Origin: Sphingomonas sp. LaA6.9
GTDB lineage: Bacteria > Pseudomonadota > Alphaproteobacteria > Sphingomonadales > Sphingomonadaceae
Assembly (NCBI RefSeq): GCF_022601895.1
Contig: NZ_JAKVIO010000027.1
Location: forward strand, 1-58,185
Reading direction: 5' to 3'
Length of the DNA stretch: 58,185 nucleotides
Below the pieces are notes generated by a model. The model ran no database searches. It had not been told where the DNA came from and saw only the letters and a list, made by a program, of their open reading frames with translations. This document shows, piece after piece, positions 7,921 to 35,660 of this stretch. Made by a program: the position numbers and the translations under genes. Every line of letters begins with the position of its first letter. The stretch's first letter is position 1.

Positions 7921-8101
7921 GAACTTGTCTCCCTTGGGGATATTGCCGGTCGGGCCGATGCTAGGCGGCGTGTTCGCCAAAGGAAATGGGGCGCGGAATC
8001 ATTGCGCATTGCTGTGCATTGAAACGGATTGATGGTTGCGCTCGATTGACCCCGTGCAGCGTAAATATTAGGCCTGACACTCAGGTGGGAGGACTTTGGA
8101 T

Positions 8102-8617
8102 ATGTGGCGCGGATTGATGCTCAGCATTCCGCTCGTCATGGCGACATGGCAGGTGCCGGCTTTCGCGCAGGCCGACGAGCCCGCAGCCAGCGAGGAAGGC
8201 GCTCCGTGCAAATTGTCACAGAAGAAGAAGCAGGGCTCAAGCATGCTGGGCGGCATTCTGGGCGGCATTGCCGGCAGCACGCTCGGGCGCGGGAGCGTCG
8301 GCAGCTTCATCCCGTTCAACCTGGTCAGCACGACGCTGACCAACGCCATCGCGTGCAAGCTTGACAAGGACGAGCAGAAAAAGGCGGCGAAGGCGACCGA
8401 TGTCGCAATCTCCAAGGGTGTCGGCGGCAGCGAGAGCTGGACGAGCACGACGCGCGAGGGGGTCAGCGGCACCTCGACCGTCACTGCGCAAGCGCAGGGT
8501 GCCGACGGCGCGGATTGCGTGACGGTCGACGACGTCATCATCGTCAATGGCGAAGAGACGATCGCTTCCAAGCGGATGTGCCGCGCGCAGGGCGGTTCGG
8601 GCTATGCGGTGGTCTGA
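8102..8617 (+). CDS. Secreted glycine-zipper protein of unknown function
   Basis: A 171-residue protein with a cleavable signal peptide (LMLSIPLVMATWQVPAFAQA). A glycine-zipper segment, MLGGILGGIAGSTLGRG, follows near residue 50, as in small outer-membrane or surface-antigen proteins. Three cysteines remain in the mature part. The ATG at 8102 is eight bases after GGGAGGAC; a TTG two codons earlier sits too close to that site. Its end overlaps the start of the ClpP-like gene, so the two are translationally coupled. I do not recognise a characterised family. Confidence 0.72.
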   Translation: MWRGLMLSIPLVMATWQVPAFAQADEPAASEEGAPCKLSQKKKQGSSMLGGILGGIAGSTLGRGSVGSFIPFNLVSTTLTNAIACKLDKDEQKKAAKATDVAISKGVGGSESWTSTTREGVSGTSTVTAQAQGADGADCVTVDDVIIVNGEETIASKRMCRAQGGSGYAVV

Positions 8618-9320
8618 GGCATCACGGCTGCGCCGCGCGGTCGTGGCCATTGCATCGCTGGCCCTGCTGGCGGCGGCGCCTACGGGGATGGATCCCGAAA
8701 ATCCCACCTGCCCCAAGGCGCTCAACTGGACCAGCTATCCCGAGATGCGCTTCACGCTCCGCGAGGAGAAGGGGCGTCGCGTCCTGCTCGCCGAAGGCAA
8801 GATCGACACGGGCATGGTGACCCGACTTGCCGACGCGATCGAGACCAACAAGCCGATCCAGGAGATCTGGCTGCGTTCGCCGGGCGGCAGCGCGTCCATC
8901 GGCAACGAGGCGGGACGGCTCATTCGCAGCCTCAACATCGCGACGCGTATTCCCGCGACCTGGGCGTGCTTCAGCGCGTGCAACTTCGTCTTCATGGGCG
9001 GCCCTGTGCGCTGGGTCGATCCGGGCGGATTGTTCGTCGTTCACATGTTCACGCACCTGTCCGATCGTGATGCGGTGAAGGAAGACCTCGCGCGCGGCAC
9101 CGACGAAGCGATCGAGACGATCGGCGATATCGAGCAGGGTTCGGCGCTGCTCGCGAGCGACGACAATGATTTCCTGATCCGCATGGGCGTCTCGCGCAAG
9201 CTGCTGACCGAGGTGATGTACCGGCAAAAGGCGATTGCGGGGCAGGGGGAGGACCGTTCGACGCGGCGCTGCCTGACGCAGGACGAGCTGTTCAGATACC
9301 GCGTCACCAACGTCCGCTGA
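8604..9320 (+). CDS. Periplasmic ClpP/crotonase-fold protein (COG3904-like)
   Basis: A 238-residue protein with an N-terminal hydrophobic export signal (residues 10-26). The core resembles the ClpP/crotonase fold: [18 protein letters not shown] (SPGG at 92-95), then [13 protein letters not shown] with Ser124 in the place of a catalytic serine, and FVVHMF with His147. COG3904-type proteins share this layout and are predicted periplasmic hydrolases; none of this shows activity. The start ATG at 8604 lies inside the end of the preceding glycine-zipper gene (14-bp overlap). A cysteine before and after Ser124 (CFSAC) could form a disulfide. Confidence 0.75.
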
Positions 9321-27864: not shown

Positions 27865-28275
27865 TCAGAGGGTGGCGGGCGGTCCGATGGCGGGTGGCGG
27901 CGGGGCGGCGAGGCCGCGGCCGATCGCGACCGACGCCGGCAGCGTGATCGCGGTGGCTGTGACGAAGTAGAGCGATGGCGTGAAAGCGACCGCCGGCACC
28001 GCGTCAAACGCGGCGCCGAGCCCCGCAAAGGAGCAGGGCTGATCGGTTTTCGGCTCCGATTTCTGCGGCGCCTTGTCGTGCAGGCTGCCGTCCGTGGCGA
28101 CCCACGCCTCGACCAGCCCCTGACCGGTGCACAATGTGATCCGCACCGCGCCATCGGCATCGGTCGCCGGCATCCAGCCCGCGGGGACGAGCATGCGGAG
28201 CATCAGCGCACACGCGACGATCCAGAGCGCAATGGCCCTGTTCTCGCCCGTCAGTCGTGCGCGGATCGTGTTCAT
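27865..28275 (-). CDS. DUF2946-family membrane protein
   Basis: A 136-residue protein with a hydrophobic N-terminal segment (IALWIVACALMLRMLVPAGW) and a conserved ITLCTGQG motif, then Cys in QPCSFAGLG and a second hydrophobic segment near 100-125. This matches the DUF2946 family often found next to copper or iron receptors. It is the first gene of the metal operon and divergent from the histidine kinase gene (77 bp between starts). Function unknown. Confidence 0.75.
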   Translation of the reverse strand: MNTIRARLTGENRAIALWIVACALMLRMLVPAGWMPATDADGAVRITLCTGQGLVEAWVATDGSLHDKAPQKSEPKTDQPCSFAGLGAAFDAVPAVAFTPSLYFVTATAITLPASVAIGRGLAAPPPPAIGPPATL

Positions 28276-28352
28276 GGCGCGGCGCTATGCGCTCGAACAC
28301 TACGGGACGCAACGGCTTCCCGTGCGCCGCGCAATCGAATAATGCGAAACAC

Positions 28353-29450
28353 ATGGCGCATATCGGCCTTATCGAAAAGCCGTTCTTCGACGACAAGAAC
28401 CGGGCTTTCTGGAACCTCCAGTCGGGCGGCTGGGCGGGCTATCTCGTGCTGCGCGCCATTTCGGGCTTCTCCAACGGCTTCCCGCTCGAATTCATGGTGC
28501 CGCTGCTGATCCATGTGGTGACGGGCTATTCGCTGACGCTGATCCTCGCGGTGATCTACCGGCTCGTCATCAACCAGCGACGGATCGTTACCTGGGGCGT
28601 TTCGGTGGGCGCGGTCGTGCTCGCGACTTTGCTCTATGCGACGATCGACGCGTGGGTGTTCTCGACGATCAACCGTCCGACCACGCCGTTTTCGACGAGC
28701 GTGATCACGGGCATGCTGTTCCTCGATCTCACCATCCTCGCGGCATGGTCTTCGCTTTATTATGCGATCAACTTCTACCTGATCGTCGAGGAACAGGCCG
28801 ACCAGCTCGTCAAGCTCGACAGCCAGGCAAGCGCCGCGCAGCTGGCGATGCTGCGCTATCAGCTCAATCCGCACTTTCTTTTCAATACCCTGAACTCGAT
28901 CTCGACGCTGGTGCTCCTGAAGCAGACCGAGCGCGCCAATGCGATGCTGTCACGGCTTTCCTCGTTCCTGCGCTACACGCTCGCCAACGAGCCGACCGCG
29001 CAGGTGACGATCGCGCAGGAGGTCGAGACGCTGAAGCTCTATCTCGAGATCGAGAAGATGCGTTTCGAGGACCGGCTCAGGACGACCTTCACGGTCGACG
29101 AACGCGTATCAAAGGCGCGGCTGCCTTCGCTGCTGCTTCAGCCACTTGTCGAGAATGCGATCAAATATGCGGTCACGCCGCAGGAGGAAGGCGCGGACAT
29201 TTCGGTCGATGCGCGGCTTGCCGGAGATCGGGTGCAGATCACCGTGTCGGATACCGGGCCGGGGTTGAACGGAGCGGTACTCAGGCCCAGCTATTCAACA
29301 GGAGTGGGTCTCGCTAACATACGTGACCGTCTCGCCCAGGCGTTCGGACCCGAGCATCGATTCGATGCCGGCTCGAAACCAACGGGCGGGTTCAGCGTTG
29401 TCATCGAGTTCCCGTTACTACTGGAAGAACAGCCGAAAGTGGCCGCATGA
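28353..29450 (+). CDS. LytS/YehU-type sensor histidine kinase
   Basis: A 365-residue membrane kinase. Four hydrophobic segments lie before residue ~145; the HisKA_7TM-less LytS kinase box LNPHFLFNTLNSIS has the phosphoacceptor His174, followed by the ATPase domain with LLQPLVENAIKYAV (N box) and DTGPGLNG (G1). The sensor part is only membrane segments, so the stimulus is unknown. It overlaps the response regulator by 4 bp (ATGA). The short distance to the divergent DUF2946-receptor operon suggests it may control that operon. Confidence 0.9.
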   Translation: MAHIGLIEKPFFDDKNRAFWNLQSGGWAGYLVLRAISGFSNGFPLEFMVPLLIHVVTGYSLTLILAVIYRLVINQRRIVTWGVSVGAVVLATLLYATIDAWVFSTINRPTTPFSTSVITGMLFLDLTILAAWSSLYYAINFYLIVEEQADQLVKLDSQASAAQLAMLRYQLNPHFLFNTLNSISTLVLLKQTERANAMLSRLSSFLRYTLANEPTAQVTIAQEVETLKLYLEIEKMRFEDRLRTTFTVDERVSKARLPSLLLQPLVENAIKYAVTPQEEGADISVDARLAGDRVQITVSDTGPGLNGAVLRPSYSTGVGLANIRDRLAQAFGPEHRFDAGSKPTGGFSVVIEFPLLLEEQPKVAA

Positions 29451-30247
29451 CGATACGTACCATTCTGGTCGATGACGAACCCCTTGCGATTCAGGGGCTT
29501 CAACTGAGACTGGAAGCCCATGACGATGTTGAAATCGTCGATACCTGCCTGAATGGCCGCGAGGCGATTCGCTCGATCAAGACCAACAAGCCCGATCTGG
29601 TGTTCCTCGATATCCAGATGCCCGGTTTCGACGGTTTCTCCGTCGTGCAGGGGATGATGGAGGTCGAACCGCCGTTGTTCGTGTTCGTGACCGCCTATTC
29701 GGACCACGCGATCCGCGCCTTCGAGGCGCAGGCCACCGACTATCTGATGAAGCCCGTCGAGCCCGAAAGACTTGCCGACACGCTCGAGCGCGTGCGCCAG
29801 CGTCTGTCGGAGAAGCGCGGGCAGGAAGAGGCAGAGCGGCTGAAGGAAGTGCTCACCGAGGTGGCGCCCGAGGCCGCCGAATCGATGGGCGAGAACCACG
29901 AGACGCACGCATCGAACCGCTATGAGAAGCTGATCAACATCAAGGATCGCGGGCAGATCTTCCGCGTCGATGTCGATTCGATCGAGCGCATCGACGCAGC
30001 GGGCGATTACATGTGCATCTATACCGGCGACAACACGCTGATCCTGCGCGAGACCATGAAGGATCTCGAAAAGCGGCTCGATCCGCGCCGTTTCCAGCGC
30101 GTCCACCGTTCGACGATCGTCAATCTCGACCTTGTCAAACAGGTCAAGCCGCACACCAACGGCGAATGCTTCCTCGTGCTCGATTCGGGCGCGCAGGTGA
30201 AGGTCAGCCGGTCCTATCGCGACGTGGTGGCGCGCTTCGTCCACTGA
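29447..30247 (+). CDS. LytTR-family response regulator
   Basis: A 266-residue regulator. The receiver domain (1-120) has Asp9/Asp10 (LVDDEP), phosphoacceptor Asp55 (LVFLDIQMPG) and a lysine in MKPVEPERL. The LytTR DNA-binding domain covers about 160-265 with IERIDAAGDYMCIYTG and RFQRVHRSTIVNLDLV. It overlaps the kinase gene by 4 bp, so the two form one two-component system. A hairpin follows directly after the stop. Confidence 0.92.
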   Translation: MTIRTILVDDEPLAIQGLQLRLEAHDDVEIVDTCLNGREAIRSIKTNKPDLVFLDIQMPGFDGFSVVQGMMEVEPPLFVFVTAYSDHAIRAFEAQATDYLMKPVEPERLADTLERVRQRLSEKRGQEEAERLKEVLTEVAPEAAESMGENHETHASNRYEKLINIKDRGQIFRVDVDSIERIDAAGDYMCIYTGDNTLILRETMKDLEKRLDPRRFQRVHRSTIVNLDLVKQVKPHTNGECFLVLDSGAQVKVSRSYRDVVARFVH

Positions 30248-30253
30248 GATATT

Positions 30254-30279
30254 CTTCCCCGGGTACGCGCCCGGGGAGG
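30254..30279. terminator. Hairpin between convergent genes
   Basis: Stem CTTCCCCGGG / CCCGGGGAGG (one T-G pair) with loop TACGCG directly downstream of the LytTR gene and facing the end of the minus-strand micropeptide gene. It may serve both directions; T-runs are weak. Confidence 0.55.
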
Positions 30280-30284
30280 AGTTT

Positions 30285-30383
30285 CTACCCCGAAACCACC
30301 AGTGCAACCCCGATCGTCAGCAGCGCCGCGCTGATCGCGATCAGCCAGGGCTTGTGCGCGGCGCAGGTGAAGGGGTGGATCAT
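30285..30383 (-). CDS. 32-residue single-pass membrane micropeptide
   Basis: A small ORF read as MIHPFTCAAHKPWLIAISAA followed by LLTIGVALVVSG. One transmembrane helix (residues ~13-31) with a short N-terminal segment holding one Cys and two His. Its ATG overlaps the stop of the ribbon-helix-helix gene as ATGA, which is the usual form of translational coupling. It is the last gene of the SPFH operon. Function unknown; I infer a membrane partner of the SPFH protein. Confidence 0.65.
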   Translation of the reverse strand: MIHPFTCAAHKPWLIAISAALLTIGVALVVSG

Positions 30384-30595
30384 GCCTCATCCTCCCCGGT
30401 CTTGCCGGGGGGCCGCCCGCGCGGGCGCTGTTCGGGGGCGGCGACCTTCACGCCCCGCCGCGCCAGCGCCTCACGCAGCAATATCTCGATCTCGGCATTG
30501 ACGCTCCTGAGGTCGCTCGCCGCCGCGCGCTCGAGCGCCGCGAACAGCGCGGGCTCGAGACGCAGCGGGAACGCCTTTTTGGGGGGAGCGGCCAA
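30380..30595 (-). CDS. Arc-type ribbon-helix-helix DNA-binding protein
   Basis: A 71-residue protein. KAFPLRLEPALFAALERAAA followed by SVNAEIEILLREALARRG is the ribbon-helix-helix pattern of Arc-family repressors (strand, then two helices with conserved Asn-Ala-Glu-Ile). The tail is basic (RPRGRPPGKT, AT-hook like). Start is TTG at 30595 with AAGGA nine bases before. It lies 12 bp after the SPFH gene and overlaps the micropeptide gene by 4 bp. A role as autorepressor at the 22-bp palindrome upstream of the SPFH gene is inferred. Confidence 0.75.
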   Translation of the reverse strand: MAAPPKKAFPLRLEPALFAALERAAASDLRSVNAEIEILLREALARRGVKVAAPEQRPRGRPPGKTGEDEA

Positions 30596-30607
30596 CGCCC
30601 GATATCC

Positions 30608-31513
30608 TTACTGGTACAGCGTTCCGGTGTTGACGACGGGCTGCGTGTCGCGCTCGCCGCACAGCACGACCATCAGATTGGAGACCATCGCCGCCTTGCG
30701 CTCGTCATCGAGGTGGACGACGTTCTTGGCGCTCAGCTGTTCGAGCGCGGTCTCCACCATCGACACCGCGCCCTCGACGAGCTTCTTGCGCGCGGCGATC
30801 ACCGCCTCGGCCTGCTGGCGGCGCAGCATCGCCTGCGCAATCTCCTGCGCATAGGCGAGGTGCGTCAGGCGGCATTCGTCGATCGTGACCCCCGCGATCT
30901 GGACGCGTTCCTGCAGCTCGATCCGCAGTTCCTCGCTGACATGCTCGGCATCGCCGCGCAGCGTCACTTCCTTGTGCTCGATATCGTCATAGGGATAGCG
31001 CGAGCCGATCGCGCGCACCGCGCTCTCGATCTGGATGTGGACGAACTGCTTGTAGTCGTCGACGTCGAACAGCGCCTGCGCGCTGTCGGTGACGCGCCAC
31101 ACGACGTTCGAGGCGATCTCGATCGGGTTGCCGCGCAGGTCGTTCACCTTCAATTTGTCCGAGGTGATGTTGTGGACGCGTGCCGAAATCTTGGTGCGGG
31201 TGAGCCAGGGGAGAACCCAGCGCAGCCCCGTGGTGCGATCGGTGCCGCGATAATCGCCGAACAGCAGGATCGCCGCGGCCTGGTTGGGCTGGATCAGGTA
31301 GAAGCCGGACAGGATCAGGACCATCGCGATGAGCGCGACGATCATCACGGCAACGACGGTGCCGCTCTGCTGGTCGCTGGCGAACTGGATGAATCCCCAC
31401 GCCTCCGCCGCGATCGTGACCAGCAGCAGGAGCAGCATCAGATAGCCGCTCTGCGTGTTTGCCGGCCGCTCGCTGCTCGCATTGAGCGACGCGGCTGATT
31501 TCCCCTCGGTCAT
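30608..31513 (-). CDS. SPFH (band 7/prohibitin-like) membrane protein
   Basis: A 301-residue protein with two N-terminal transmembrane segments (YLMLLLLLVTIAAEAWGFIQ and VVAVMIVALIAMVLILSGFY) followed by an SPFH domain (NQAAAILLFGDYRGTDRTTG, then DNIVWRVTD-like ASNVVWRVTDSAQALFDVDD) and a C-terminal coiled-coil helix (QAMLRRQQAEAVIAARKKLV). SPFH proteins organise membrane microdomains or guard proteases. The ATG at 31513 follows GGAGGACGAC. First gene of the operon with the RHH protein and the micropeptide; an AT-rich perfect palindrome covers its promoter. Confidence 0.88.
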   Translation of the reverse strand: MTEGKSAASLNASSERPANTQSGYLMLLLLLVTIAAEAWGFIQFASDQQSGTVVAVMIVALIAMVLILSGFYLIQPNQAAAILLFGDYRGTDRTTGLRWVLPWLTRTKISARVHNITSDKLKVNDLRGNPIEIASNVVWRVTDSAQALFDVDDYKQFVHIQIESAVRAIGSRYPYDDIEHKEVTLRGDAEHVSEELRIELQERVQIAGVTIDECRLTHLAYAQEIAQAMLRRQQAEAVIAARKKLVEGAVSMVETALEQLSAKNVVHLDDERKAAMVSNLMVVLCGERDTQPVVNTGTLYQ

Positions 31514-31523
31514 GTCGTCCTCC

Positions 31524-31545
31524 ATAATTATGATATCATAATTAT
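31524..31545. promoter_or_regulatory. Perfect 22-bp AT-only-like palindrome over the SPFH promoter
   Basis: The half-site ATAATTATGAT is followed exactly by its reverse complement. It stands just before the ribosome-binding site of the SPFH gene, in a genome with very few AT-rich stretches. On the minus strand TTGACC lies upstream and TATAAT-like hexamers lie inside the palindrome, so a bound protein would block RNA polymerase. The downstream RHH protein is the obvious candidate ligand. Confidence 0.65.
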
Positions 31546-31591
31546 ATCGTAGACCGATTCGGTCAAGCGCAAACGGGATGCACGCCCGGTC

Positions 31592-31681
31592 GTCATGCCG
31601 AACTTGATTCGGCACATGAACACGGTCGTGTCAGAAGCTGCACCGTTCGCGTTCATGGATGCTGACTTTCGTCAGCATGAC
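31592..31681. repeat. Structured intergenic repeat family A, copy 1
   Basis: Starts GTCATGCCGAACTTGATTCGG, has inner CATGAACAC ... GTTCATGGA arms and ends CTTTCGTCAGCATGAC. It shares this plan with 36205-36296 and 38168-38260. Lies between the SPFH promoter and the pal terminator. Confidence 0.75.
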
Positions 31682-31700
31682 GGCAGGGGGATGGTGCAAA

Positions 31701-31738
31701 GAAAAAGGGCCGCCGGAGCATTGCCCCGACGGCCCTTT
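31701..31738 (-). terminator. Rho-independent terminator of the Tol-Pal operon
   Basis: On the minus strand GGGCCGTCGGGGC / GCTCCGGCGGCCC with loop AAT is followed by TTTTTC, about 20 bp after the pal stop. Confidence 0.85.
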
Positions 31739-31757
31739 CGCCAGTCTTTGGACGCGC

Positions 31758-32270
31758 TTACTGGACCGTGACGGTCACCGCGCGGCGGTTGCGCGCCCAG
31801 CTTGCCTCGTCCGAACCCAGCGCTTCGGGGCGCTCCTTGCCGTACGAGATCACCGAGATGCGCGAGGCGGGGATGCCCAGCGACGCGAGATAGTTCTTCG
31901 CCGCATTGGCGCGGCGCTCGCCGAGCGCGAGGTTGTATTCGCGCGTACCGCGTTCGTCGGCATGACCTTCGATCGTCACGCGGACATTGGGATATTGCTG
32001 CAGCCACTGCGCCTGGCTCGAAAGCGTCGCCTGATCCTCGGCGTCGATGTCGAACTGGTCGAGGCCGAAGAAGATCTTGTCCGAGCTGACCTTGGCAATG
32101 AAATCGGCCTGCGATCCGGGGACGGGCGCGGTGCCCACGCCCGACTGGTCGCCCGTGTCGGGCTGTTCGGTGGCGGGCGGTGGCGGCAGCTGCTCCGGCG
32201 CCTTCTTGGCGCACGCGCCGAGCGCGACGAGGCTCGCGGCGAGGATGATCTTGCTACCCAGACGGGCCAT
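31758..32270 (-). CDS. pal: Peptidoglycan-associated lipoprotein Pal
   Basis: An outer-membrane lipoprotein of 170 residues that binds peptidoglycan and TolB/TolA. Lipobox ending at Cys20 (LVALGAC), a Pro-rich linker, and an OmpA-like domain with VTIEGHADERGTREYNLALG and RRAVTVTV. AAAGGAGAAAGAA precedes the ATG. Last gene of ybgC-tolQRAB-pal, with a strong terminator behind it. Confidence 0.96.
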   Translation of the reverse strand: MARLGSKIILAASLVALGACAKKAPEQLPPPPATEQPDTGDQSGVGTAPVPGSQADFIAKVSSDKIFFGLDQFDIDAEDQATLSSQAQWLQQYPNVRVTIEGHADERGTREYNLALGERRANAAKNYLASLGIPASRISVISYGKERPEALGSDEASWARNRRAVTVTVQ

Positions 32271-32375
32271 TTCTTTCTCCTTTTACTACAAACAACACTG
32301 CCCACCCTGTCGCGGGCCTTGGTCGGGCGAAATCATTACGGGGTCAACCCGAACCCCGCATTTTCGTTCCTGTGA

Positions 32376-33707
32376 TTACGGAAGAATCGGGCCCCATGCG
32401 GGGTCCGAGCCGTCGACGGGCGTCGGAATCCGCCGCTCGTTCACGCCGGTCAGGTCGACCTGCCACACGCTCGACGTGCCACCGCGGCCCTGGCTCGTAC
32501 GGAAGAACTGGATGACGCGGCCATTGGGCGACCAGGTCGGCGCTTCGTCCTGCCAGCTGTTGGTGAGAAGCCGTTCGCCGTCGCCCGAGGGACTCATCAC
32601 GCCGACACGGAAATTGCCCGCCATCTTGGTGAAGGCGATCAGGTCGCCGCGCGGGCTCCATTCGGGGGTCGCATAGCGCCCCCCGCCAAAGCTGATGCGG
32701 TGCTGGTTCGAGCCGTCGGCATTCATGATGTAAAGCTGCTGGCCGCCCGAGCGATCGCTTTCGAAGACGATCTGCGAGCCGTCGGGCGAGAAGCTGCCGC
32801 CGATGTCGATGCCCGGCGCGGTGGTGAGCCGCCGTGGCGTGCCGCCGGTAATCGGAATGCTGTAGATATCGGTATTCCCGCCAGTCGCCATCGAGAACAG
32901 GATCGTCCGGCCATCGGGCGAGAAGCGCGGCGCGAGCGTGGCGCCCTGTGCCTCATAGACGAGCCGCTGCTTGCCCGTGCCGATGTCGTAGACGAACACG
33001 CGCGGGCGGTTGTTGAGATAGCTGAGATAGACGATCTGCTTGTAGTCGGGCGAGAAGCGCGGCGTCAGCGCGATCGCCTGACCATTGGTGATGAAACGGT
33101 GGTTGGCGCCATCCGAATCCATGATCGCGAGGCGCTTGGTGCGGTTCCCCTTGGGGCCGGTCTCGGCGATGTAGGCGATGCGGCTGTCGAAGAAGGGGCT
33201 TTCGCCCGACAGGCGCGAATAGATGGTGTCGGCGCATTTGTGCGCGGCGCGACGCCAGTCGGAGGGCTGGACGACGAAGCCCTGCCGCACGAGTTCGCTG
33301 CGCAGCGCGACGTCGTAGAGATAGCAGCCCACGGTCAGGTTGCCGTCGCCATTGGCGCGCACGAAACCCTGGACGAGCGCCTGTGCGCCCGTACCGGGCC
33401 AGTAATCGAATTGCGGCGCGGTCACCTCGGGAAAGGTGATGTTCCGCACCTGTGCCGGACCGATCGGGCGGAAGAGCCCGCTGCCGCGGAGATCGGAGGC
33501 GACGACTTCGGCGACCTGCCGGCCGAGCGCATCGGTGGTGCCTGCTGCGGTAGGCGCGCTTTGCGGGGTCGGCATGGCGGGGATCGCGATGACGAGGTCA
33601 TTGCCGCTTTCGTCGGTGACGTCGACGCTGAGCTGGGCGGCCGCCGGCTGAATGGCGGTCAGCAACGCTGCGGCGAAGCCAGTGGTGAGCAGCTTGAAAT
33701 GGGTCAT
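32376..33707 (-). CDS. tolB: Tol-Pal system periplasmic protein TolB
   Basis: A 443-residue periplasmic protein: signal peptide (LLTTGFAAALLTAIQPAAA), N-terminal domain and a six-blade beta-propeller with repeats such as LTPRFSPDYKQIVYLS, LAPRFSPDGRTILFS and GSFSPDGSQIVFESD. It contacts Pal and TolA during outer-membrane constriction. Its start overlaps the tolA stop by 4 bp; pal follows 105 bp downstream. Confidence 0.96.
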   Translation of the reverse strand: MTHFKLLTTGFAAALLTAIQPAAAQLSVDVTDESGNDLVIAIPAMPTPQSAPTAAGTTDALGRQVAEVVASDLRGSGLFRPIGPAQVRNITFPEVTAPQFDYWPGTGAQALVQGFVRANGDGNLTVGCYLYDVALRSELVRQGFVVQPSDWRRAAHKCADTIYSRLSGESPFFDSRIAYIAETGPKGNRTKRLAIMDSDGANHRFITNGQAIALTPRFSPDYKQIVYLSYLNNRPRVFVYDIGTGKQRLVYEAQGATLAPRFSPDGRTILFSMATGGNTDIYSIPITGGTPRRLTTAPGIDIGGSFSPDGSQIVFESDRSGGQQLYIMNADGSNQHRISFGGGRYATPEWSPRGDLIAFTKMAGNFRVGVMSPSGDGERLLTNSWQDEAPTWSPNGRVIQFFRTSQGRGGTSSVWQVDLTGVNERRIPTPVDGSDPAWGPILP

Positions 33708-34525
33708 TGCGATAGCCTCTTGTCAAAACCGATCGGGCACATGGATTTCCAGGTATCGTAGAATTGCGGTGGCAGGTTCTTGAACGGCGACGCCAGCTTC
33801 ACCGCCTTGATCGCGCGTTCCTGATGCAGCTGCACCAGCCCGCGGTTGGACGCGGTGACCCCGGTCGTACCCTGCGTCTCGATATTGGTGACCGCGCCGG
33901 TTTTGGAGACGGTGAGGCAGAGTTTGGTCTGCAGCTTCTCGGCGTCGGCCCCGGTCGGCGCGGTCCAGTGCGGTTTGAGCTGGCGCAGCACCTCGGCTGC
34001 GAGCGCCGACTGCACCGCCGGTCCCGCCTTTTGCGCGGGGGTGCCCGTGGCGCGCGTCTGCGTGGGTGCGTCGGTCAGTCCCGCCAGCATGTCGCGGCTG
34101 AGCCGGCTCTTGCGCTGGGGCTCGGCGGTTGCCTGCTGCTTGCTTGGCGCCTTGGGTGCGGGCTTGGCGGCGGCCTTTTCGGGCTTGGGCTTTTCCGTCG
34201 GCTTCTTCTCGGCGGGCTTGGGCGCGGGCGCCGGCTTCACTTCTGCGCGCTTCATCGGTTCGGGCTCGGGCGGCGCGGGCTGCGCCTCGGGCTCGGGCAT
34301 GTCGAGCGGCGCCGGCTCGGGAGAGAGCGCGGCGGGCGGTTCGCTGATCGGATCGGGCGCGGTGCTTTCAAGCGCGACCTCGTCGGTCAGCGTAACCTCG
34401 ATCGGCTTCTGCTTCAGGTTGGCGGGATTGGGCGTGGCGAGAAAGCCGACCGACAACAGGCCGAACAGCACGGCATGGCCGGCAATGGCTATCCCGAGCC
34501 CTGCCTTCTCGACGCGGTCCATCAT
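33704..34525 (-). CDS. tolA: TolA-like energy-transducing protein
   Basis: A 273-residue inner-membrane-anchored periplasmic protein. One N-terminal TM segment (AGLGIAIAGHAVLFGLLSVG), a long Pro/Lys/Ala/Glu-rich spacer (residues ~55-145), and a C-terminal domain with LKPHWTAPTGADAEKL and LCLTVSKTGAV that resembles TolA/TonB C-termini. It is called by position and layout as sequence is poorly conserved. Overlaps tolR by one base and tolB by four. Confidence 0.88.
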   Translation of the reverse strand: MMDRVEKAGLGIAIAGHAVLFGLLSVGFLATPNPANLKQKPIEVTLTDEVALESTAPDPISEPPAALSPEPAPLDMPEPEAQPAPPEPEPMKRAEVKPAPAPKPAEKKPTEKPKPEKAAAKPAPKAPSKQQATAEPQRKSRLSRDMLAGLTDAPTQTRATGTPAQKAGPAVQSALAAEVLRQLKPHWTAPTGADAEKLQTKLCLTVSKTGAVTNIETQGTTGVTASNRGLVQLHQERAIKAVKLASPFKNLPPQFYDTWKSMCPIGFDKRLSQ

Positions 34526-34965
34526 CAGCCGGCCTGCTCCGCGCCGGTGGTGACGAGCGACACCTTGTTGAGCCCCGCGCGGTTGAGCTCGCCCATCACG
34601 CGCATCACGCGACCGTAATCGAGCCCGCGATCGGCGCGCAGGAACACCTGCGGCTCATCGCCGCCCTGCGGCGGGCGCTTCGATTCGAGGATGGTGGGAA
34701 GCTCGGCCTCCATCACCTCCTGATCGTCGACGAAGACGCGGCCTTCATTGTCGAGCGAGATCTGGATGGGCTTCCGGTCGGGCTCGAGCGCGCCCGCGCG
34801 GCTGTCGGGCAGGTTCACGGGCACGCCGGTGACGAGCAGCGGCGCGGTCACCATGAAGATGATGAGCAGCACCAGCATCACGTCCACCAGCGGCGTGACG
34901 TTGATCTCGGCCATCGGGGCGCGGCGGCCCCGGCCAGCGCGGGAGGGAAGGGGACCCATTGCCAT
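34525..34965 (-). CDS. tolR: Biopolymer transport protein TolR (ExbD family)
   Basis: A 146-residue protein with one TM segment carrying the proton-channel aspartate (INVTPLVDVMLVLLIIFMVT) and a periplasmic ExbD domain (VFLRADRGLDYGRVMRVMGE). It forms the motor with TolQ. Start and stop each share one base with tolQ and tolA (TGATG). Confidence 0.96.
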   Translation of the reverse strand: MAMGPLPSRAGRGRRAPMAEINVTPLVDVMLVLLIIFMVTAPLLVTGVPVNLPDSRAGALEPDRKPIQISLDNEGRVFVDDQEVMEAELPTILESKRPPQGGDEPQVFLRADRGLDYGRVMRVMGELNRAGLNKVSLVTTGAEQAG

Positions 34966-35660
34966 CAGCTGGCGATCTCCAGTTCACGGCTGAGCGTGGT
35001 GTGGAAGCCATCGGCAAAGCGGTTGAGCCGCGCCTCGAGCCGGTTGATGCCGTGGCTGAAGCGGTTGAACGCGATCACCGCGGGGATCGCGGCGAACAGC
35101 CCGATCGCGGTTGCGAACAGCGCCTCGGCAATGCCGGGTGCGACGACCGCGAGGCTCGAATTCTGCTCTGCGGCGATCGCGGTGAAGCTGCGCATGATGC
35201 CCCAGACCGTGCCGAACAGCCCGACAAAGGGCGCCACCGCGCCGACGGTGGCGAGGATGTTCAATCGGTCCGAAAGCTCGTCGATCTGGTGCGCTACCGC
35301 GCTGCCCATCGCGGTGGCCAGGCGCGCGCGCGTGCCGTCGCGGTCGATCGACTTTCCGCCCGTCGAGCGGCGCCATTCGGTGAGCCCCGCGTCGAACACC
35401 TTGGCGCTCGGCAGGTCGGACTTGCTGTGCGCGTTGTGGAAGCGGTCGATATCCTCGGTCTTCCAGAAGTCGCTCTCAAAGCGGTCCGAGCCCTTGCTCA
35501 GCCTTTTCAGCTTGGCCCAGAAGCCGATGATGATCGCCCAGGTCCAGATGCTGGCAAGCAGCAGCCCGAGCATCACGCCCTTCACCACCCAGTCGGCCTG
35601 CATGAACAGCGCCACCGGGGACAGGGTGGCGGCATCCATATTCAACATGATCGATTCCAT
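34965..35660 (-). CDS. tolQ: Tol-Pal system motor protein TolQ
   Basis: A 231-residue inner-membrane protein of the MotA/TolQ/ExbB family with three TM segments (residues ~20-45, ~133-155, ~170-195). The family signature LATVGAVAPFVGLFGTVWGI and PGIAEALFATAIGLFAAIPA is clear. The start may be ATG 35660, 35648 or 35639; none has a strong ribosome-binding site, and 35660 keeps the ORF full length. First inner-membrane gene after ybgC, 18 bp downstream. Confidence 0.95.
   Translation of the reverse strand: MESIMLNMDAATLSPVALFMQADWVVKGVMLGLLLASIWTWAIIIGFWAKLKRLSKGSDRFESDFWKTEDIDRFHNAHSKSDLPSAKVFDAGLTEWRRSTGGKSIDRDGTRARLATAMGSAVAHQIDELSDRLNILATVGAVAPFVGLFGTVWGIMRSFTAIAAEQNSSLAVVAPGIAEALFATAIGLFAAIPAVIAFNRFSHGINRLEARLNRFADGFHTTLSRELEIAS

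Follow-up and report, generated by a model that had tools for sequence, protein, structure and literature searches.

Autoregulated operons are well known, as are both SPFH proteins and repressors of the Arc type. In Bacillus subtilis, the autorepressor SdpR is encoded beside SdpI, a membrane protein able to hold it at the membrane. Both the repressor fold and the membrane protein differ from those of the SPFH-RHH (ribbon-helix-helix) operon considered in this study, for which sequestration of the repressor is only hypothesized. Arc dimers sit side by side on their operator, about one turn apart. The RHH protein studied here resembles P22 Arc in its RHH profile matches and in a common FxLR...RSVN..I pattern, and the likeness would extend to side-by-side dimers one turn apart if the protein binds as proposed below. 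It differs from P22 Arc in its pairing with an SPFH gene, its occurrence in several phyla, its GATATC operator units and, in Sphingomonadales, its AT-hook-like tail.

SPFH1, 2 and 5 have NfeD-type operon partners, as in QmcA-YbbJ, while the other SPFH subgroups lack NfeD and have neighbours that do not look like those with which other SPFH genes form operons, according to the accessible part of Hinderhofer 2009 (PMC2636767). Neither CopG nor DNA-binding appears as a word in the text of that article. SPFH-NfeD operons share with the present operon an SPFH gene that has a conserved operon partner; here the partner is an RHH protein. The Omega protein of the omega-epsilon-zeta operon is of the MetJ/Arc type and places successive dimers on arrays of short repeats (accessible part of PMC4803016). 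That system combines heptad repeats with a toxin-antitoxin partner, whereas in the operon described here the units are palindromic with an 11-bp spacing and the partner is SPFH. PspA-YdjI of B. subtilis is an envelope-stress operon that includes a Band 7 protein, and in this it resembles the SPFH-RHH operon; CopG and RHH do not appear in the article describing it (PMC9239133). Neither the SPFH-RHH pair nor its operator was described in the titles and abstract openings among the matches listed for the open-access literature. One article contains both SPFH and ribbon-helix-helix, and its accessible part makes no link between them (PMC8656257). The recurrence of an SPFH gene, an Arc-like RHH gene and the same DNA signal in distant bacteria suggests a dedicated, self-regulated membrane module.

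Gene order and distribution of the SPFH-RHH pair

The first-pass annotation of the window (the whole stretch of 58,185 nucleotides that was analysed) had described three tightly packed genes on the minus strand, and their coordinates were confirmed. The SPFH (Band 7) gene occupies 30608..31513 (301 aa), the RHH gene 30380..30595 (71 aa, TTG start) and a 32-codon micropeptide ORF 30285..30383, all on the minus strand. The interval between SPFH and RHH is 12 bp, and the start of the micropeptide ORF overlaps the RHH stop by 4 bp (ATGA). A Shine-Dalgarno-like GGAGGA, read from the sequence, lies ahead of the SPFH start codon (31518..31523, minus strand).

SPFH is flanked in the window by RHH and a pal-like gene. 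Genes that are Tol-pal-like by their translations lie just upstream of SPFH on the same strand and span 31704-35660 together with an inverted repeat. This repeat (31704-31738) follows the pal-like gene and is absent from the output of the terminator scan. A Pal match oriented like SPFH lies upstream of it in 24 of the fetched loci, including that of the window. On the plus strand, two genes at 28257-30247, one resembling a sensor kinase and the other a LytTR-type response regulator, run convergently towards the end of the micropeptide ORF.

The SPFH protein was used to fetch 110 loci, of which 106 were non-identical and one was the window's own, and each of the 110 has an RHH gene downstream of SPFH in the same orientation, a count that describes the closer relatives because 80 of these loci were the best of 569 confirmed relatives among the matches listed (one genome per species); the other 30 came from 149 family genomes. 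The distance between the two genes was at most 120 bp in 98 loci and 208-827 bp in 12, several of which had an intervening gene. By their record titles, the loci belong to Sphingomonadales, Hyphomonadaceae, Burkholderiales, Undibacterium, Dokdonella, Acidobacteria, Verrucomicrobia, Akkermansia, Ignavibacteria, Phycisphaerae, Streptomyces and other actinobacteria. These titles span six phyla. Judged by its distribution, the pair is an ancient module.

The two genes also occurred together when whole genomes were searched. Among the 149 family genomes, a strong SPFH match was found in 60 and a strong RHH match in 59, all of them among the 60; in the genome with SPFH but without a strong RHH match, SPFH lies at a contig end. 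Among 299 genomes of the phylum, SPFH was found in 28 and RHH in 26, again all among the 28. No strong RHH match without SPFH was found in the 149 and 299 genomes among the candidates scored. These absences are not strict because the number of candidates scored per genome was capped (at most 41 for RHH in the 149 family genomes, 20 and 7 in the 299 phylum genomes and 15 in a larger draw of 397 family genomes). In the larger draw RHH was present in 181 of 397 genomes, and among the same-genus genomes listed there it was present in three of five and missing in two. The RHH gene gave one match in 13 of 14 diverse genomes, and the 14th has an extra weak match.

Strong SPFH matches comprised 61 places in the 60 genomes, down to an E value of 1.7e-82. 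The dropped matches (4e-28 and worse) were other SPFH proteins and second gene pieces in G146 and G147. Strong RHH matches had E values of 1e-20 or better, and ten weaker places (5e-5 to 1e-3) were dropped. Negative gaps between the two genes at three loci (L214, L217 and L219) were taken as artefacts of over-long RHH frames; the SPFH frames end normally there.

The proposed operator and the promoter-like site

A perfect 22-bp palindrome, ATAATTATGATATCATAATTAT, lies at 31524..31545, as had been noted in the first pass, and is proposed to be the operator of the operon. No other perfect palindrome in the window is as long, and the next longest measures 18 bp. When up to three mismatches were allowed, ATAATTATGATATCATAATTAT had no second match in the window and none in 100 shuffles. 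Exact TATGATATCATA occurs once in the window's genome (4.39 Mb), with one further place at one mismatch. Between the palindrome and the SPFH start codon are 10 bases, GGAGGA among them. The sole promoter-like match in 30200-31800 is a sigma-70-type site, TTGACC-17-AATTAT, at 31538..31566 on the minus strand, with 0.2 such matches expected in shuffles. Because this match spans 31566-31538, its -10 hexamer falls inside the palindrome, so that the earlier claim that the palindrome covers the promoter of the first gene holds for the -10 region of this promoter-like site.

Conservation of the gene order and of the palindrome in relatives had been set beforehand as a test, and both the SPFH-RHH order and a core of the palindrome were clearly found. 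The core, TGATATCA, is 8 bp long and occupies 31531..31538 in the window. Of 141 non-identical loci, 127 have it without mismatch and 12 more with one mismatch, whereas resampled upstream regions gave 0.57 exact cores on average and two at most. Of the 14 loci without an exact core, about 0.85 would be expected to fall within one mismatch by chance, and 12 did. The two remaining loci are L069, which has the core with two mismatches and a phased unit, and L216, whose SPFH frame is interrupted so that its start was not found; the RHH match at L216 is full. An earlier set comprised 122 non-identical loci whose upstream sequence was long enough, and 110 of them had TGATATCA within 250 bp of the gene. 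Second in frequency among self-complementary 8-mers was one present in 20 of the 122, and first-order resampling gave a mean of 0.6 and a maximum of three. Loci that duplicated the SPFH segment of another were dropped to obtain the non-identical sets (128 to 124, and later 148 to 143), and two loci with less than 200 bp upstream were excluded from the site counts in both the 122- and the 141-locus sets.

Comparison of the loci revealed that the proposed operator is composed of phased units. In the window, the central GATATC is preceded at a distance of 11 bp by a second unit, GATATA (31543..31548, minus strand), and the unit at +11 is weak. GATATC-like units with at least five of six bases were found at -11 in 82, at +11 in 53 and at either position in 106 of the 127 loci, while every other offset from -44 to +44 had them in at most 4 of 127. 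Arc-type dimers arranged in a row would be expected to give this phasing of 11 bp. In 34 of 127 loci, as in the window, a TTGACA-like hexamer precedes the core by 28 bp; the figure for the next commonest offset was 14. The full 22-bp symmetry was rejected as a conserved element. The palindrome of the first-pass annotation is kept across relatives as an 8-bp core with units 11 bp away and not in its full symmetry, which derives in part from AT-rich flanks in the window's lineage.

When the 149 family genomes were scanned with a strict 20-bp version of the site, 39 places were found in 38 genomes, and all 39 were directly upstream of SPFH. The strict site was found in none of the 89 family genomes without a strong SPFH match, and a reversed-pattern control gave none. 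It was absent from 22 of the 60 family genomes with SPFH, many of which have looser versions. One genome (G009, contig C2) has two equal-score SPFH and RHH matches with the same site, at 7986-8885 and 2567145-2568044, which represent either a duplication or an assembly effect.

The two proteins and their proposed regulation

The SPFH protein matches Pfam Band_7 with an E value of 3.9e-25 (89.4 bits against a cut-off of 23.6) and has two predicted N-terminal transmembrane helices (residues 23-45 and 51-69). In an AlphaFold2 model of moderate confidence (mean pLDDT 72.7), the membrane helices are followed by the SPFH domain and a coiled coil. A Foldseek search with this model gave HflK, prohibitin and stomatin as best matches, with a best E value of 2.9e-10 and low whole-chain TM-scores. 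By its domain, and in the predicted structure by its fold followed by a coiled coil, the protein belongs to the SPFH/Band 7 superfamily. It scored only 25-31 bits against curated HflK/HflC families with cut-offs of 134-660, and the family profile searches gave no match to a toxin family. The two N-terminal membrane helices would place the SPFH domain and the tail, which reads QPVVNTGTLYQ at its C-terminus in the window, probably in the cytoplasm and near the RHH protein.

The earlier assignment of the second gene product as an Arc-type RHH protein was supported at the level of the family. A profile of 31 members matched the PDB entries pArc 1u9p (E 5.5e-7 over two stretches), the Arc-family 9pio (6.8e-4) and Arc 1arq (2.2e-3), and all its PDB matches were Arc entries except one weak AlgZ entry. 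At E values of 0.01 or better, Pfam found RHH_5 in 15 and Arc in 10 of the 31 members, and neither in the window protein, which was below every Pfam cut-off. As a single sequence it had no match in the PDB, and the Pfam search found no sensor domain. Some members weakly match HicB, ParD_like or FitA-like Pfam models, and NCBIfam was uninformative on the family. A monomer model of the protein has helices at 15-28 and 32-47 and no strand, and Foldseek with this monomer gave no RHH structure. Residues K7, L11, R12, R30, S31, N33, E37 and L40 are invariant across the 31 members. By profile relation, the protein is thus placed in the Arc/MetJ superfamily. It is very probably the repressor of its own module; its binding to the operator and the resulting repression are what we infer from these comparisons.

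The C-terminus of the RHH protein carries RGRP, an AT-hook-like core, in 67 of 68 loci assigned to Sphingomonadales by their list position (as was a Sphingomonad group of 87 loci used below), against one of 56 others. The sole exception in the 68 is an RHH gene cut by a contig end. The operator flanks are more AT-rich in the Sphingomonadales group; as ancestry confounds it, the co-occurrence of the RGRP tail with such flanks serves as a lead only. Position 8 of the RHH protein was also compared with the operator flank. Ser was associated with G/C in 16 of 27 loci, and Ala with A/T in 51 of 82 and with other flanks in 31. This association, being both confounded and incomplete, gave no proof of a contact.

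The C-terminal end of the SPFH protein follows the presence of the RHH gene. A tail of the form P[VI][VIL]N.G[TS][LI][YHF] was present in all 143 RHH-linked loci. Two genomes of the 299-genome phylum draw had SPFH without RHH, and 11 RHH-less SPFH loci, with these two counted among them, were found in the genomes searched from the two orders concerned (in one of 78 and 10 of 105 genomes). None of the 11 had the core upstream, an RHH match or the GTLY tail end. Because ten of the 11 come from one order, they possibly represent one or two events and thus few independent losses. Comparison of the loci ties SPFH, RHH, operator and tail to one another, and it points at a contact of the GTLY tail with the RHH protein or with something that the RHH protein needs. 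We hypothesize from this pattern that the tail docks the RHH protein.

Our reading, to which we assign a probability of about 0.7, is that the locus encodes a dedicated autoregulated membrane-scaffold module in which the RHH protein represses the SPFH operon from the operator. One promoter would drive SPFH, RHH and, in the window's lineage, a small membrane peptide. Arc-like RHH dimers would sit side by side on the GATATC units, which are spaced by one helical turn (11 bp), and would repress the operon by overlapping the -10 element. In Sphingomonadales the AT-hook-like tail may strengthen the hold on the AT-rich flanks. The SPFH protein would be the output and possibly also the input, since the RHH protein may be bound by the C-terminal tail of SPFH and so kept off DNA; the assembly state or the amount of the SPFH protein would thereby set the expression of the operon. 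In its far-reaching form, this means that the GTLY tail docks a dedicated Arc-type repressor and that scaffold assembly directly controls its own transcription in several phyla. We regard this form as tentative and, on balance, unlikely; if it were true, the module would be a membrane-to-operator switch without a kinase, sigma factor or protease. The docking of the tail, the inducing signal and a role in membrane stress are speculative. The self-regulated module put forward in the first-pass annotation stands as far as the gene order, the core, the Arc-type RHH protein and a site suited to repression are concerned; its micropeptide partner does not.

The RHH protein could also be a plain negative-feedback limiter of the amount of SPFH protein, with nothing sensed and the tail kept for SPFH assembly only. 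This differs from our reading in the speculative docking part only, and it is a possibility to be taken seriously, although we give it well under an even chance. The lack of a sensor domain in the Pfam search of the RHH protein suits it, negative feedback alone would account for both operator and linkage, and the tail could serve oligomerisation. It fits less well with the absence of the GTLY end exactly where RHH is missing (present in 0/11 against 143/143), even if few independent losses underlie these figures.

Linkage alone is no proof that the RHH protein, and not another regulator, reads the operator. The operator might belong to an unlinked regulator, with the RHH protein acting elsewhere or on the SPFH protein only, and palindromes with AT-rich flanks would indeed suit many regulators. 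However, the core and RHH are jointly absent in all 11 RHH-less relatives, and an 11-bp phasing of short repeats is in keeping with Arc-type dimers. In the family genomes, moreover, the strict site was found beside this operon only (39/39), which is a misfit with a regulator that has other such targets, and we consider an unlinked regulator improbable. A type II toxin-antitoxin pair with the RHH protein as antitoxin is more improbable still. RHH is among the DNA-binding folds of antitoxins (accessible part of PMC4803016), and the weak HicB, ParD_like and FitA-like matches of some members point the same way. The partner, however, is a 301-aa SPFH membrane protein that matches no toxin family, PADLOC gave no match for the three window proteins, and the RHH gene is second in the operon and mostly single copy per genome. 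A toxin-antitoxin or defence system was rejected on account of the SPFH partner and the PADLOC result.

If the autoregulated module is as we propose, the locus represents a widespread SPFH subfamily with what is likely its own regulator, a precisely built operator and a conserved tail whose presence follows that of the regulator. With the operon's own promoter used as a reporter, what these SPFH proteins respond to becomes directly testable.

The micropeptide and other accessory genes

The micropeptide ORF encodes 32 residues with a single predicted membrane helix. Similar ORFs (29-34 residues with one hydrophobic stretch) were present at the corresponding position in 10 of the 87 Sphingomonad loci, as compared with 6 of 1739 control stop codons. 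Among eight of the micropeptides, 23 of 28 pairs scored more than 2.5 standard deviations over shuffled peptides. The coding constraint was weak, with pN against pS of 0.30/0.44, 0.31/0.34 and 0.43/0.49 in three pairs at the best-aligned shift. In one same-genus locus (L206), in which the SPFH DNA is 86% identical, a stop and deletions interrupt the ORF, of which a recognisable remnant persists. In another (L207), its place is taken by a larger, WFxPK..GYG-type membrane protein, and other loci have at this place a different membrane protein of about 80-110 aa, another gene or nothing.

The micropeptide was thus rejected as a core component, and its proposed role as a working partner of SPFH was not borne out, given its restricted occurrence, its replacement elsewhere and the break in L206. 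From the pairwise likeness, the occurrence and this break, we regard it as a lineage-restricted, dispensable accessory that is probably real. At L064:4301-4543, a second micropeptide-like sequence ends a further ORF downstream of the first.

The accessory genes at the SPFH-RHH loci include DUF1648 and DUF4177 proteins, an alpha/beta hydrolase and small membrane proteins; most received no name from the profile searches. They are in part consistent with an envelope role and do not identify a signal. Genes between SPFH and RHH were observed at L078:4170-4664, L112:3794-4294, L086:3948-4400 and L088:3996-4502, which span Burkholderiales, Undibacterium and Ignavibacteria. Two of them (L078 and L112) encode DUF1648 proteins and the other two had no Pfam match. 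DUF1648 is a domain of SdpI as well, a point of likeness to SdpR-SdpI. The gene after RHH at L061:4090-4842 has a weak likeness, far below the cut-off, to a myxosortase/CPBP-type intramembrane protease.
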